Part shown: piece by piece, positions 23,387 through 39,743 of the stretch | How the letters are laid out: every line of letters starts with the position of its first letter | Position numbering within the stretch: the stretch's first letter is position 1 | From: Subtercola sp. | GTDB taxonomy: Bacteria > Actinomycetota > Actinomycetes > Actinomycetales > Microbacteriaceae | DNA: 64,000 nucleotides | Assembly: GCA_025463765.1 (NCBI GenBank) | Contig: JAODBC010000019.1 | Location: 62,001-126,000, forward strand | Reading direction: 5' to 3' | Notes under the pieces: generated by a model | Told to the model about the DNA's origin: nothing | Database searches by the model: none | What the model saw: the letters and a program-made list of their open reading frames with translations, nothing else | Position numbers and translations under genes: made by a program

Positions 23387-23475
23387 CCCGAAAGGCTAGC
23401 CGACCCCAGCCCCCTGCAAGCCGAACGCCGAGCGGCACGAAGAGGTACCCCACCGTTTCGGCGGAGCGACGCCCA

Positions 23476-23563
23476 ATTCGCGCAGCGTCACCCACTTCGC
23501 GGAGCGTCACCGACTTCGCGGAGCGTCACCGACTTCGCAGAGCGTCACCGACTTCGCAGAGCG
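23476..23563. repeat. 19-bp tandem repeat, about four and a half copies
   Basis: Unit CTTCGCGGAGCGTCACCGA starts at 23495, 23514, 23533 and 23552, with a degenerate copy before. It lies in the divergent region between the S4 gene and the PopR-like regulator, ending 4 bp before the regulator's operator. The last copies contain GCAGAG, similar to an operator half-site. Confidence 0.88.
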
Positions 23564-23566
23564 GAT

Positions 23567-23581
23567 TCTGCTGTGAGCAGA
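23567..23581 (+). promoter_or_regulatory. Operator palindrome TCTGCT-N3-AGCAGA upstream of the regulator
   Basis: TCTGCTgtgAGCAGA is a perfect 6+6 palindrome with a 3-base centre, 42 bp before the GTG at 23624. The same site, with one outer mismatch, precedes the clpP pair at 25475-25489. It resembles the Streptomyces PopR site TCTGCC-N3-GGCAGA as I recall it. Confidence 0.7.
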
Positions 23582-23623
23582 TTCGTGATGACGGATGATC
23601 GTGGTTGATGGTTCACTGGGAAG

Positions 23624-24142
23624 GTGACCGAGACAGCCGAGCCCGTGACGCCGCAGAGCCGCCCGACCGCGCAGAGCCGTCCGACCGCGCAGAGCCGTCC
23701 GACGGCGCAGAGCCGTCCGACGGCGCAGAGCCGTCCGACGGCGCAGAGCCGCCCGCTCGACGAACTCTGGAGGCGAGCGCTCGGGCGACAGCTGCGCGAA
23801 CTCCGCCTGGCGCGTGGTGAGCGTCTCGACGACACAGCGACCCGGGCCGGCATCTCTCCCCAGTACCTGTCCGAAGTCGAGCGCGGCCGAAAAGACGCCT
23901 CGAGTGAGATGATCGGCGCTATCGTCGGTGCGCTGCAGAGCCGGCTCGCCGACATTCTGCTGCGCGTCGCCGACGACCTCTCGACGGGCTACGCTTCGGC
24001 CCAGGTCATCGACATCAGGTCGACCACCTCTCGGGGAGGGCCGCGAAGCGAGCACGGCGGTACGCCGTTCGACGTTTCCGTGTCGATTGCCGGCATGTCG
24101 GTCACGGGCATGTCGATCGCTGCCCTGCCGGTCGCCGCCTGA
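23624..24142 (+). CDS. PopR/ClgR-type XRE regulator with C-terminal VAA
   Basis: 172 aa. Residues about 50-105 form an HTH_XRE domain with the ClgR/PopR signature GISPQYLSEVERGRKDASSE, where the YLSE.ERGRK.ASSE core is highly characteristic. In Streptomyces, ClgR and PopR activate clp genes and are themselves ClpP substrates recognised by C-terminal alanines; this protein ends LPVAA. Six in-frame 18-bp units encode QSRPTA at residues 11-46 (bases 23653-23761), an extension not needed by the domain, so a start after it is possible. The GTG at 23624 has no well-spaced ribosome-binding site. Converges on the clpP pair, 71 bp away. Confidence 0.85.
   Translation: MTETAEPVTPQSRPTAQSRPTAQSRPTAQSRPTAQSRPTAQSRPLDELWRRALGRQLRELRLARGERLDDTATRAGISPQYLSEVERGRKDASSEMIGAIVGALQSRLADILLRVADDLSTGYASAQVIDIRSTTSRGGPRSEHGGTPFDVSVSIAGMSVTGMSIAALPVAA
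23653..23761 (+). repeat. 18-bp in-frame tandem repeat, six copies
   Basis: Units CAGAGCCGTCCGACCGCG start at 23654, 23672, 23690, 23708, 23726 and 23744, encoding QSRPTA at the N-terminus of the PopR-like regulator. Confidence 0.92.
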
Positions 24143-24155
24143 AACCCAGCGTCAC

Positions 24156-24195
24156 GCACTGAACGCACTGAACGCACTGAACGCACTGAACGCAC
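24156..24195. repeat. 9-bp tandem repeat (GCACTGAAC)
   Basis: About four and a half copies start at 24156, 24165, 24174 and 24183 in the 71-bp gap between the regulator and the clpP-like gene tails. The unit is related to the AACGCCCTM array at 3082-3123. Confidence 0.88.
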
Positions 24196-24213
24196 CGTCG
24201 CACCGTCGCACCC

Positions 24214-24822
24214 TCACACCGCGGGCACCGGTTCGCGAGTCACCGTGACGACGTCGTCGACGAGCCCGTAGTCCCTGGCGGCCTGTGAGCTGAAGACACG
24301 GTCGCGGTCGGTGTCCAGGCGCAGCGTTTCGACGGATTGCCCGGTGTGCGCGCTCAGCACTTCTTCCATGTCTGAGCGCACCCTGACCAGTTCATCCGCC
24401 CGCAGAATGAGGTCGGGAATAGTGCCGCGACCCTGGTCGGCGGGCTGATGCAGCACAACCCGCGCGTGACGCAGAGCCGCACGCCGGCCGATGGCGCCCG
24501 CCGCCAGCAATGCGGCACCGGGGCCGATCGCCTCGCCGACGCACGTCGTCGCGATCGGCGATGTCACGTACTGCATGGTGTCGTAGATCGCGAGCGCGGC
24601 AGAGAGGTCGCCGCCCTCGCAGTTGATGTACATGCTGATCTCCCGCCCTGGCGCGCTTGCCTCGAGGTGCAGAAGCTGCGCGATCAGAGCGTTTGCCACC
24701 CCCGCGTCGATCGCTGAGCCGAGATAGACGATGCGCTCGGTCAGAAGGTGGGAGAAGACGTCCATGATGCGGTCGCCTCGTAGGCTCTCGCTGACAACAT
24801 TGGGGATCGTGTAGCTGCTCAC
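24214..24822 (-). CDS. ClpP-like protein lacking the catalytic serine (ClpR-like)
   Basis: 202 aa from GTG 24822, overlapping the stop of the catalytic clpP (GTGA). The ClpP fold is clear: RIVYLGSAID, MYINCEGGDL, ATTCVGEAIGPGAALLAAG, HARVVLHQP and DRDRVFSSQAARDYGLVDD. At the position of the nucleophile (usual A-S-M-G) it reads IGPG, so Ser is replaced by Gly100; His125 and the DRDR Asp are kept. It should therefore fold and assemble but not cleave, like ClpR subunits of cyanobacteria and plastids. Likely forms a mixed barrel with the neighbouring ClpP. Confidence 0.85.
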   Translation of the reverse strand: MSSYTIPNVVSESLRGDRIMDVFSHLLTERIVYLGSAIDAGVANALIAQLLHLEASAPGREISMYINCEGGDLSAALAIYDTMQYVTSPIATTCVGEAIGPGAALLAAGAIGRRAALRHARVVLHQPADQGRGTIPDLILRADELVRVRSDMEEVLSAHTGQSVETLRLDTDRDRVFSSQAARDYGLVDDVVTVTREPVPAV

Positions 24823-25433
24823 AGCGATGCCCCGATTCCGACCGTGCGGAAACGGCTCGGGCGAATCTGGTCGAACGAGTTGACGACATGGTCGATGAAT
24901 CCGTAGTCCATGGCCTCTTCTGCCGAGTACCAACGATCGTGCAACGAGTCTTCGAAGACTTTCTCGACAGGCTGGCCGGTGTCGTCGGCGATCAGTCCGA
25001 GCATCACATCGCGCGTGTAGCGCAGGTCGTTCGCCTGCACCTCGACCTCGACGGCCGACCCGCCGATTCCGGCTGAGCCCTGGTGCATCAGGATGCGCGC
25101 GTGCGGCAACGCGAACCGTTTGCCACGCGCGCCCGACGTCAGCAGAAACTGCCCAGCCGAGCAGGCAAGCCCGAGCGCGACCGTCGAGACGTCGCAGGGA
25201 ATGACATTCATGATGTCGCGGATGGCCAGCATGGACGGGACGGATCCGCCCGGTGAGTGAATCCAGAAGGCGATGTCTTCGCCCGGTTCGCTTGCGGCGA
25301 GCGTCATCAGCTGACTCGCGATCAGCATGCCGTTGTCGTCGGTGAGTGCGCCGTCGAGCACCACCACCCTGTTGAAGAGCAGCTGGGCCCTGGCCTGGTC
25401 GGTGAAGAAGAATCGTGCGTTCTCGTCTGTCAT
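24819..25433 (-). CDS. clpP: ClpP protease subunit, catalytic
   Basis: 204 aa from ATG 25433. Full catalytic triad: Ser92 in GLACSAGQFL, His117 in ILMHQGS and Asp166 in HDRWYSAEE, plus the oxyanion segment SPGGSVPSML. Without an adjacent clpX or tig and with a dedicated regulator, this resembles the second, inducible clpP3/clpP4 operon of Streptomyces more than the essential clpP1P2 locus. It probably works as a serine peptidase barrel docked to ClpX or ClpC in the cytoplasm. First gene of a two-gene overlapping operon. Confidence 0.88.
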   Translation of the reverse strand: MTDENARFFFTDQARAQLLFNRVVVLDGALTDDNGMLIASQLMTLAASEPGEDIAFWIHSPGGSVPSMLAIRDIMNVIPCDVSTVALGLACSAGQFLLTSGARGKRFALPHARILMHQGSAGIGGSAVEVEVQANDLRYTRDVMLGLIADDTGQPVEKVFEDSLHDRWYSAEEAMDYGFIDHVVNSFDQIRPSRFRTVGIGASL

Positions 25434-25474
25434 GCTCCCAGCATCGAACAGGGCTGCCGATGATCTCCACCGAT

Positions 25475-25489
25475 GCTGCTGCAAGCAGA
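25475..25489 (-). promoter_or_regulatory. Operator palindrome upstream of the clpP pair
   Basis: On the plus strand GCTGCTgcaAGCAGA: CTGCT-N3-AGCAG is a perfect palindrome 42 bp before the clpP ATG, the same distance as the matching site before the regulator gene. Eleven of its twelve arm bases match the regulator-gene site. Confidence 0.7.
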
Positions 25490-25580
25490 CCTGCTGAGCG
25501 CAGAACGCCCCGTGTTCAGCGGCGGTCAGAACGTGAACCTCGACCCAGTCGGTGACGTGCATCCGGCCCGGCCGTGCTCG

Positions 25581-38643: not shown

Positions 38644-39743
38644 GTGCCGTACCTGCGCCAACGACGCCAGCGCACAATGCTTCTCACGCGCTCTGTGCGC
38701 AATTCGGCGTAGCCGACGAGAGGATGCACGTGGGAGCGCCGCCTCGAAAGATACGTCTTCCAGCTGCGGCTGTCGACAATGCCCGGGTCGGTGGCCTTCG
38801 CGAACTGCGCGTACTCGGCTGCTGAGATTCGGTCGGTCATGCTTGTGCCATCGACGCTGCCGGGCTCTCGATCGGCTGGCGCTGAGAGCAGCGCGATCGC
38901 CCGCCGCAGCCCTTCTCGCGCGAGAGCGCGCTTGGCGATTCCGAGCCGGGCGTCGTCAGCGCTGCCCGAAGCGCCGAAGAAACGGGTGAACGTATCGGTG
39001 CGCGAATTCAGTTCGCGAAGACCCCCGCCCAGAGTGGTGAGATGCATGTTCTCGCCGTGAACTCGGTAGTAGCCCTGAACACGCCCGTTCACGCGGCCTA
39101 TGTCGCCGGCGGCCGCGGCACGCATCCAGAGCATCATGTCTGCGCTCTGAGGCAGTTCGGCATCGTAGAACCCGGTCTGATGCAGAACCGATCGGCGCAT
39201 GATCGCTTCGGGATTGATGATGGTATTGCTGCCGCGCTCGCACATCCGGGTGATCCAGTCAGAGCCGCTCCAGACAGACCAGCTCTCGACTCGCGAGCCC
39301 GCAGCGATGCTTTCGTTCACCGGAGGCATGCCCGTGAATGTCAGGGCGAACCCGTAAACCAGCCCCACGTTCGGGTGGTTCTCCATCAGTCGAGCGGCTC
39401 GGCCGAGGCATCCTTCGGGCAGCAGGTCATCGGCTGAGAGCAGAACGACATAGTCTCCCGCCGCGCGCGCCAGGCCGTCGTTGTACGTGGCGATGTGCCC
39501 GGCGTTGATTTCGTGCGCCACAACAGTGATGCGGGCATCCGCAGCAGCCAGGCTCTGGGCGAGATTCACACTGTCATCGGTCGAAGCGTCGTCGACGATG
39601 ATGATCTCGACCTCGACGCCCTCTTGGTTGGCTGCACTTTCGACCGCGCCGGCCAGGTACTGCGCGTAGTTGTAGGTCGGAATGACGACCGTGACCGTGG
39701 GCAGGCGGCCCTCGGGCAGCTGCTGCACTCGCACGCGGGTCAC
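38640..39743 (-). CDS. Family 2 glycosyltransferase
   Basis: 367 aa from GTG 39743 overlapping the acyltransferase stop (GTGA). VTVVIPTYNYAQYLAG, EIIIVDDASTDDS and LLSADDLLPEG define the GT-A domain; the usual DxD is S-A-D-D here. Paralogue of the GT2 at 34720-35922, with the same helical C-terminal half and basic Arg/Trp tail (VRWRRWRRYGT). The duplication suggests two related linkages in the repeat unit. Confidence 0.88.
   Translation of the reverse strand: MTRVRVQQLPEGRLPTVTVVIPTYNYAQYLAGAVESAANQEGVEVEIIIVDDASTDDSVNLAQSLAAADARITVVAHEINAGHIATYNDGLARAAGDYVVLLSADDLLPEGCLGRAARLMENHPNVGLVYGFALTFTGMPPVNESIAAGSRVESWSVWSGSDWITRMCERGSNTIINPEAIMRRSVLHQTGFYDAELPQSADMMLWMRAAAAGDIGRVNGRVQGYYRVHGENMHLTTLGGGLRELNSRTDTFTRFFGASGSADDARLGIAKRALAREGLRRAIALLSAPADREPGSVDGTSMTDRISAAEYAQFAKATDPGIVDSRSWKTYLSRRRSHVHPLVGYAELRTERVRSIVRWRRWRRYGT

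Follow-up and report, generated by a model that had tools for sequence, protein, structure and literature searches.

The locus analysed here, which lies in a 64,000-nucleotide stretch (the window) of a draft 4.3 Mb genome of Subtercola (Microbacteriaceae), most probably encodes a PopR/ClpP3P4 backup-protease circuit, a reading to which we give a probability of about 0.8 from comparative sequence evidence, and PopR probably activates its own gene as well. We assign the system to PopR/ClpP3P4 because of the orthology of its two ClpP subunits, the same tandem operator, a convergent regulator ending in Ala-Ala and the match of the operator to the published PopR site. The backup-protease circuit governed by PopR, which the available portions of the literature describe only for Streptomyces, would thereby extend to Subtercola and to many other actinobacteria. 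The elements of the locus, in window coordinates, are as follows.

23567..23581, plus strand: PopR box of the popR promoter (candidate self-operator), TCTGCTGTGAGCAGA, a perfect palindrome with 0 mismatches
23612..23617, plus strand: TTCACT, a weak candidate for the -10 hexamer of popR, at -12 to -7 relative to the GTG
23624..24142, plus strand: popR-like gene with GTG start, encoding a 172-aa XRE-type regulator with C-terminal VAA (HTH_31/HTH_3; nearest solved structures are ClgR chains)
24214..24822, minus strand: clpP4-like gene, in which Gly takes the place of the catalytic Ser (GEAIGPG) (CLP_protease; alignments; tree)
24819..25433, minus strand: clpP3-like gene with ATG at 25433 and the triad Ser, His, Asp present (CLP_protease; alignments; tree)
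25440..25445, minus strand: -10-like element GATGCT of clpP3, in a predicted leaderless promoter (dyad positions relative to the ATG: A -11, T -7)
25475..25489, minus strand: proximal PopR box of clpP3, GCTGCTGCAAGCAGA, 1 mismatch, -56 to -42
25490..25504, minus strand: distal PopR box of clpP3, CCTGCTGAGCGCAGA, 2 mismatches, -71 to -57, directly adjoining the proximal box

The clpP3 and clpP4 genes overlap on the minus strand, and the plus-strand popR-like gene, whose product ends in ALPVAA, converges on both. A preliminary description of this DNA had named a PopR-class regulator ending in VAA, convergent with an overlapping pair of ClpP/ClpR type, and had placed the palindrome TCTGCT-N3-AGCAGA at 23567-23581 and 25475-25489, 42 bp before both starts and resembling the Streptomyces PopR box. 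The gene content agrees with this, one subunit does have an incomplete triad (Ser to Gly), the two palindromes carry 0 and 1 mismatch, and the spacers between box and start codon measure 42 nt for the popR GTG and 41 nt for the clpP3 ATG. The operator likewise matches the site printed in the available part of a review (PMC9775585), TCTGCC-3N-GGCGAATCTGCC-3N-GGCAGA. Both boxes of that first inventory are retained, but the adjoining second clpP box at 25490-25504 had been overlooked. The clpP3 reading frame has a second ATG upstream at 25562, from which the boxes would fall within the coding region; we favour 25433, since the proteins of relatives begin there.

Short repeats are found around popR. 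A 19-bp unit in 5.4 copies (window 23461-23563) ends 3 nt ahead of the popR box, an 18-bp unit in 6.1 copies (23647-23755) within popR encodes an N-terminal QSRPTA array that has fewer copies in the sister genome G005, and a 9-bp unit in 4.7 copies (24154-24195) lies between the convergent stop codons of popR and clpP4.

Orthology and catalytic residues of the ClpP subunits

We surveyed 114 loci, comprising 80 named loci, 30 from the family (the best-scoring 30 of 58 family matches) and 4 from the genus, which left 106 after removal of identical clpP3-like proteins. In the tree, Streptomyces-type ClpP3 forms one group with the first subunits (support 95/97) and Streptomyces-type ClpP4 another with the second (99/92, with an inner fork at 94/62), and both groups are separate from the housekeeping ClpP1 and ClpP2, for which the window's genome has a separate clpP pair. 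A C-terminal piece of a further ClpP, truncated by the end of its contig, is also present (L020, G000:C14).

All three triad residues, Ser, His and Asp, are retained by the first subunit at 106/106 loci of the alignment. The second subunit (n = 105; L082 ends early) has Ala at the nucleophile position in 89 cases, Gly in 13 and Ser in 3, so that the serine is replaced in 102/105, while two sequences also lack the His and two the Asp. The Streptomyces-type ClpP4 proteins are altered at the other residue, with Ser kept and Gly in place of His in 9/9. Since the second subunits of the deep relatives L187, L188 and L205 still have both Ser and His, the active site of the partner subunit appears to have been lost at least twice. 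Judged from these residues, it is most likely that only the ClpP3 subunits contribute working sites to the ClpP3P4 core.

Tandem operators upstream of clpP3

Two boxes in tandem precede clpP3 in 105/106 loci at summed mismatches of no more than 5, with a spacing of 15 bp in 94, 20 bp in 10 and 19 bp in 1; the only locus lacking the tandem is L159. By comparison, the 15-bp arrangement, which was the only spacing covered by the control, occurs in 0/2157 control windows. Neither a clear tandem nor a self-box is seen in the deep relatives L187 and L188, and the tandem of L204 is weak (sum 6). At L178, a clpP gene carries two perfect adjoining PopR boxes, with no AA-ending regulator recognised in the locus.

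In 105/106 loci an in-frame start is located 54-60 nt downstream of the first base of a box (3 mismatches or fewer). This number is partly selected, as the in-frame start was picked for its fit with the box; without any such selection, 93 candidate clpP3 starts stand at 55-57 nt. This placement provides a position-specific operator rule for PopR boxes that can be used in searches. Counted from the start codon, 83/105 clpP3 promoters have a dyad of A at position -11 and T at position -7 (the next best offset gives 21), where a -10 element would lie if transcription of clpP3 begins at the start codon. From its promoter sequence, clpP3 thus looks leaderless. A TTGAC-like -35 sequence was found in at most 6/105 loci at any clpP3 offset.

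In a GC-rich genome the palindromes might be no more than chance matches, and for the single 15-mer the count would allow it. With one mismatch or fewer, it occurs at 18 places in the assembly against 24 for a reversed control pattern, so there is no genome-wide enrichment of the single box and counting boxes alone gives no support for a regulon. Only 2 of these boxes are perfect, the second being inside a 507-aa ORF. Fifteen of the 18 places were inspected with a crude ORF call: 9/15 fall within an ORF (one of them the clpP3 site itself, with its ORF taken from the first possible start), 3/15 lie no more than 300 nt before a start (popR, L004 and L009) and 3/15 are near nothing. L004 and L009, the latter 86 nt before a 460-aa ORF, are unproven as further targets. 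Within the window, a one-mismatch box at 39430-39444 sits inside a 367-aa ORF, 50 nt before another ORF, and is probably due to chance.

What decisively sets the boxes of popR and clpP3 apart from chance is their placement and conservation. With the pattern TCTGCY-N3-RGCAGA, a box with at most one mismatch is present in 63/106 clpP upstream regions against 7/2120 shuffles, and in 49/98 popR upstream regions against 3/1960 shuffles; the corresponding values for real control windows are 6/2157 (clpP comparison) and 6/1330 (popR comparison). These windows were taken from 70 of the same loci, excluding ten loci with an off-centre clpP; with the latter left in, 4/2361 control windows had perfect boxes. 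The popR counts refer to 98 loci, as 8/106 have no regulator scoring above 90 in the locus. The preliminary description had held that many random genomic copies of the palindrome would speak against it. Such copies do exist for single boxes, but the mismatch-free tandem, searched in 12 genus genomes, occurs only before clpP3, in two of them (the window's genome and its sister G005). At one mismatch or fewer, the tandem gives 30 matches in these genomes against 16 for the reversed control. Considering boxes that are conserved and placed alike across many genera, with a tandem absent from the controls, an origin by chance is hardly credible.

A second tandem-like match that recurs in the genus (CTGCGGTGAGCAGAACGG..., one mismatch) was rejected as coding; it is also found in genomes that have no popR, and in the window's genome it overlaps the in-ORF site L011. 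In the sister genome G005 (L022 108-197) the 30-bp box pair before clpP3 is repeated three times, giving six boxes in a row, a natural expansion of the operator.

The regulator is distinct from ClgR

Domain matches and comparison with solved structures place the PopR-like protein among XRE-type regulators, related to ClgR yet distinct from it. Ala-Ala is the C-terminus in 95/98 relatives, and in 92/98 loci the regulator converges on the clpP pair from less than 400 nt away. In an AlphaFold model of the window regulator the helices at 43-134 are confident and the tail at 135-172 is of low confidence. The fold alignment (A4) holds the relatives without their last residue and was used for fold only. 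The regulator tree is poorly resolved, with strong support at only 10/48 inner branches and a long ClgR branch, and in it Streptomyces PopR is not exclusively joined to the window class.

It could be argued that the window regulator is a mere variant of ClgR and that the boxes belong to ClgR, given that its nearest solved structures are ClgR chains. A separate ClgR-like gene, with ClgR as best solved relative, is however present in 12/12 genus genomes, and in the window's genome it scores 80 bits to solved ClgR compared with 57 for the window regulator, which we therefore rejected as the ClgR orthologue. The operators lead to the same view. The ClgR box is given as GTTCGC-5N-GCG in the available text of PMC9775585; a match to GTTCGC-N5-GCG with at most one mismatch is found nowhere in the 100 nt preceding popR or clpP3, whereas a perfect match, a predicted ClgR site, lies upstream of clpP1P2 in Subtercola. 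Ownership of the boxes by ClgR is accordingly very improbable, and a PopR-class regulator remains the preferred reading.

A PopR box at the popR promoter

Of the 12 genus genomes, 5 carry a PopR-like gene (identity 46% or above). At the 4 genus loci other than the window, the clpP pair towards which the regulator converges is the same, and a perfect box of identical sequence precedes the regulator's start by 41-42 nt. In Microbacteriaceae, 33/33 loci have a self-box of one mismatch or fewer, compared with 16/65 other loci; L051 was counted among the 65, and since its clpP3 is that of L135, a genome of the same family, the figure for Microbacteriaceae could be 34/34. The self-boxes of three further Microbacteriaceae, L202-L204, carry 0, 1 and 2 mismatches. 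For the 8 genomes with no regulator at the clpP locus, we considered the best PopR-like gene elsewhere, and this carries a box at the same threshold in 5/8: perfect in 3 Kribbella and 1 Aeromicrobium, and with one mismatch in Amycolatopsis. The unlinked genes of one Glycomyces and two Nocardia (3/8) have no box with one mismatch or fewer. In two Kribbella a second box adjoins the first at the unlinked gene; the Kribbella proteins score lower, at 77-79 bits, which makes their class less certain.

Among Microbacteriaceae, 31/33 popR boxes end 40-43 nt ahead of the chosen start and the other 2 end 51 nt ahead of it (starts fitted), and the proximal clpP3 box ends 40-42 nt before the start in most candidates. 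The like position of the box in both promoters argues for activation of both. A TAnnnT sequence starting at -13 to -11 is seen at popR in 23/33 Microbacteriaceae loci; at the Subtercola popR promoters this -10 element is found in 0/5 loci, so that there the activator geometry is read from box position alone. TTGAC-like sequences are found at popR -36 in 3/33 loci only, and the 9/33 matches at position -12 coincide with the -10 region of popR.

XRE-type regulators commonly repress their own genes, and the popR box might serve negative autoregulation, with PopR repressing itself while activating clpP3P4. The box at popR is single rather than tandem as at clpP3, and the lack of a clear -10 element in Subtercola popR promoters would also suit a repressor. 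The distance from box to start, though, is that of the proximal clpP3 box in 31/33 loci, and the -10-like element, where seen (23/33), is left uncovered by the box. We regard self-repression as unlikely, if still a serious contender, and rather favour activation by PopR of its own gene in Subtercola as the probable outcome, judging from promoter architecture.

Proposed mechanism

We propose the following mechanism for the circuit. PopR, a paralogue of ClgR, would bind the tandem TCTGCY-N3-RGCAGA boxes just upstream of the clpP3P4 core promoter and, once bound there, activate clpP3P4. As long as the housekeeping ClpP1P2 is working, it would destroy PopR by way of the C-terminal Ala-Ala and thereby keep the second protease off; the Ala-Ala end and the low-confidence tail of the model fit degradation by ClpP1P2 through the C-terminus. 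When ClpP1P2 is overloaded or blocked, PopR would accumulate and clpP3P4 would be switched on. Because box and start codon are spaced alike at popR and at the proximal box of clpP3, PopR bound at its self-box most likely activates popR as well, and such self-activation, opposed by proteolysis, may give a threshold and possibly a bistable switch. The preliminary description had also predicted a closed circuit, without considering whether PopR would act positively or negatively on its own gene.

A wider and more speculative picture, which we would sooner doubt than accept at present, is that in Microbacteriaceae and scattered actinobacteria the self-activation of PopR forms a bistable switch held only by degradation through the AA tail, while the Streptomyces loop is open, and that the switch controls a protease with half of its sites dead, a design arisen at least twice, by loss of either Ser or His.

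Comparison with known systems

The ClgR/clpP1P2 system is similar in that ClgR and PopR belong to a common regulator superfamily, and in Streptomyces ClgR too is an activator degraded by ClpP1P2, according to the available portions of the literature. The ClgR-like ORF of Subtercola (L036 1531-1833) ends in ALASR, however, as opposed to the AA reported for Streptomyces ClgR in the accessible text of PMC9775585. The ClgR box and its target are likewise unlike those of PopR.

The closest comparison is with the PopR system of Streptomyces. PopR and clpP3clpP4 of Streptomyces lividans were reportedly described by Viala et al. in 2000 and 2002. In the parts of PMC9765437 and PMC12607617 that were available, Streptomyces PopR is the activator of clpP3P4 and is degraded by ClpP1P2 with a Clp-ATPase, and ClpP3P4 appears upon failure of ClpP1P2; the latter source adds that the ClpP3P4 core is insensitive to ADEP. 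Among the literature matches listed, seen as partial texts and including PMC9765437, PMC12607617, PMC9775585, PMC8182300, PMC7142297 and PMC11754652, neither a PopR circuit in any genus other than Streptomyces nor a PopR self-operator was seen, nor any mention of an inactive ClpP4; the founding Viala papers stand aside from these, and earlier priority is possible.

Our Streptomyces-type set consists of nine loci, namely the plasmid locus of S. fungicidicus and eight genome loci, taken to be from Streptomyces on account of their 84-90% identity to S. fungicidicus ClpP3. All nine share with the window an AA-ending regulator convergent with the clpP pair, two adjoining 15-bp boxes before clpP3 and an equal distance from box to -10-like dyad. 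Their first clpP3 box reads TCTGCC-N3-RGCGAA in 8/9 and TCTGCC-N3-GGCAGA in L170, and it is directly followed by TCTGCY-N3-GGCMGA in 9/9. Against this common plan, several differences stand out. The inner arm position varies in the boxes here (T or C, A or G), and the clpP3 start codon lies at the expected transcription start, but follows a leader in the Streptomyces-type genes. In the second ClpP, Ser is the residue lost here and His the one lost in the Streptomyces type. Finally, popR carries a self-box here, while a box with at most one mismatch is found in 0/9 Streptomyces-type loci, which predicts a difference in circuit logic between a closed loop in Microbacteriaceae and an open one in Streptomyces.

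The ClpR proteins of plastids and cyanobacteria are partner subunits that do not have a complete catalytic triad. The system described here resembles these ClpP/ClpR proteases in pairing a partner of incomplete triad with an active subunit, a likeness in working. The same arrangement, with the incomplete-triad partner beside the active subunit, is reported for ClpP/ClpR cores in the available part of PMC6508832. Together, ClpP cores with one inactive partner may point to a recurrent bacterial design.
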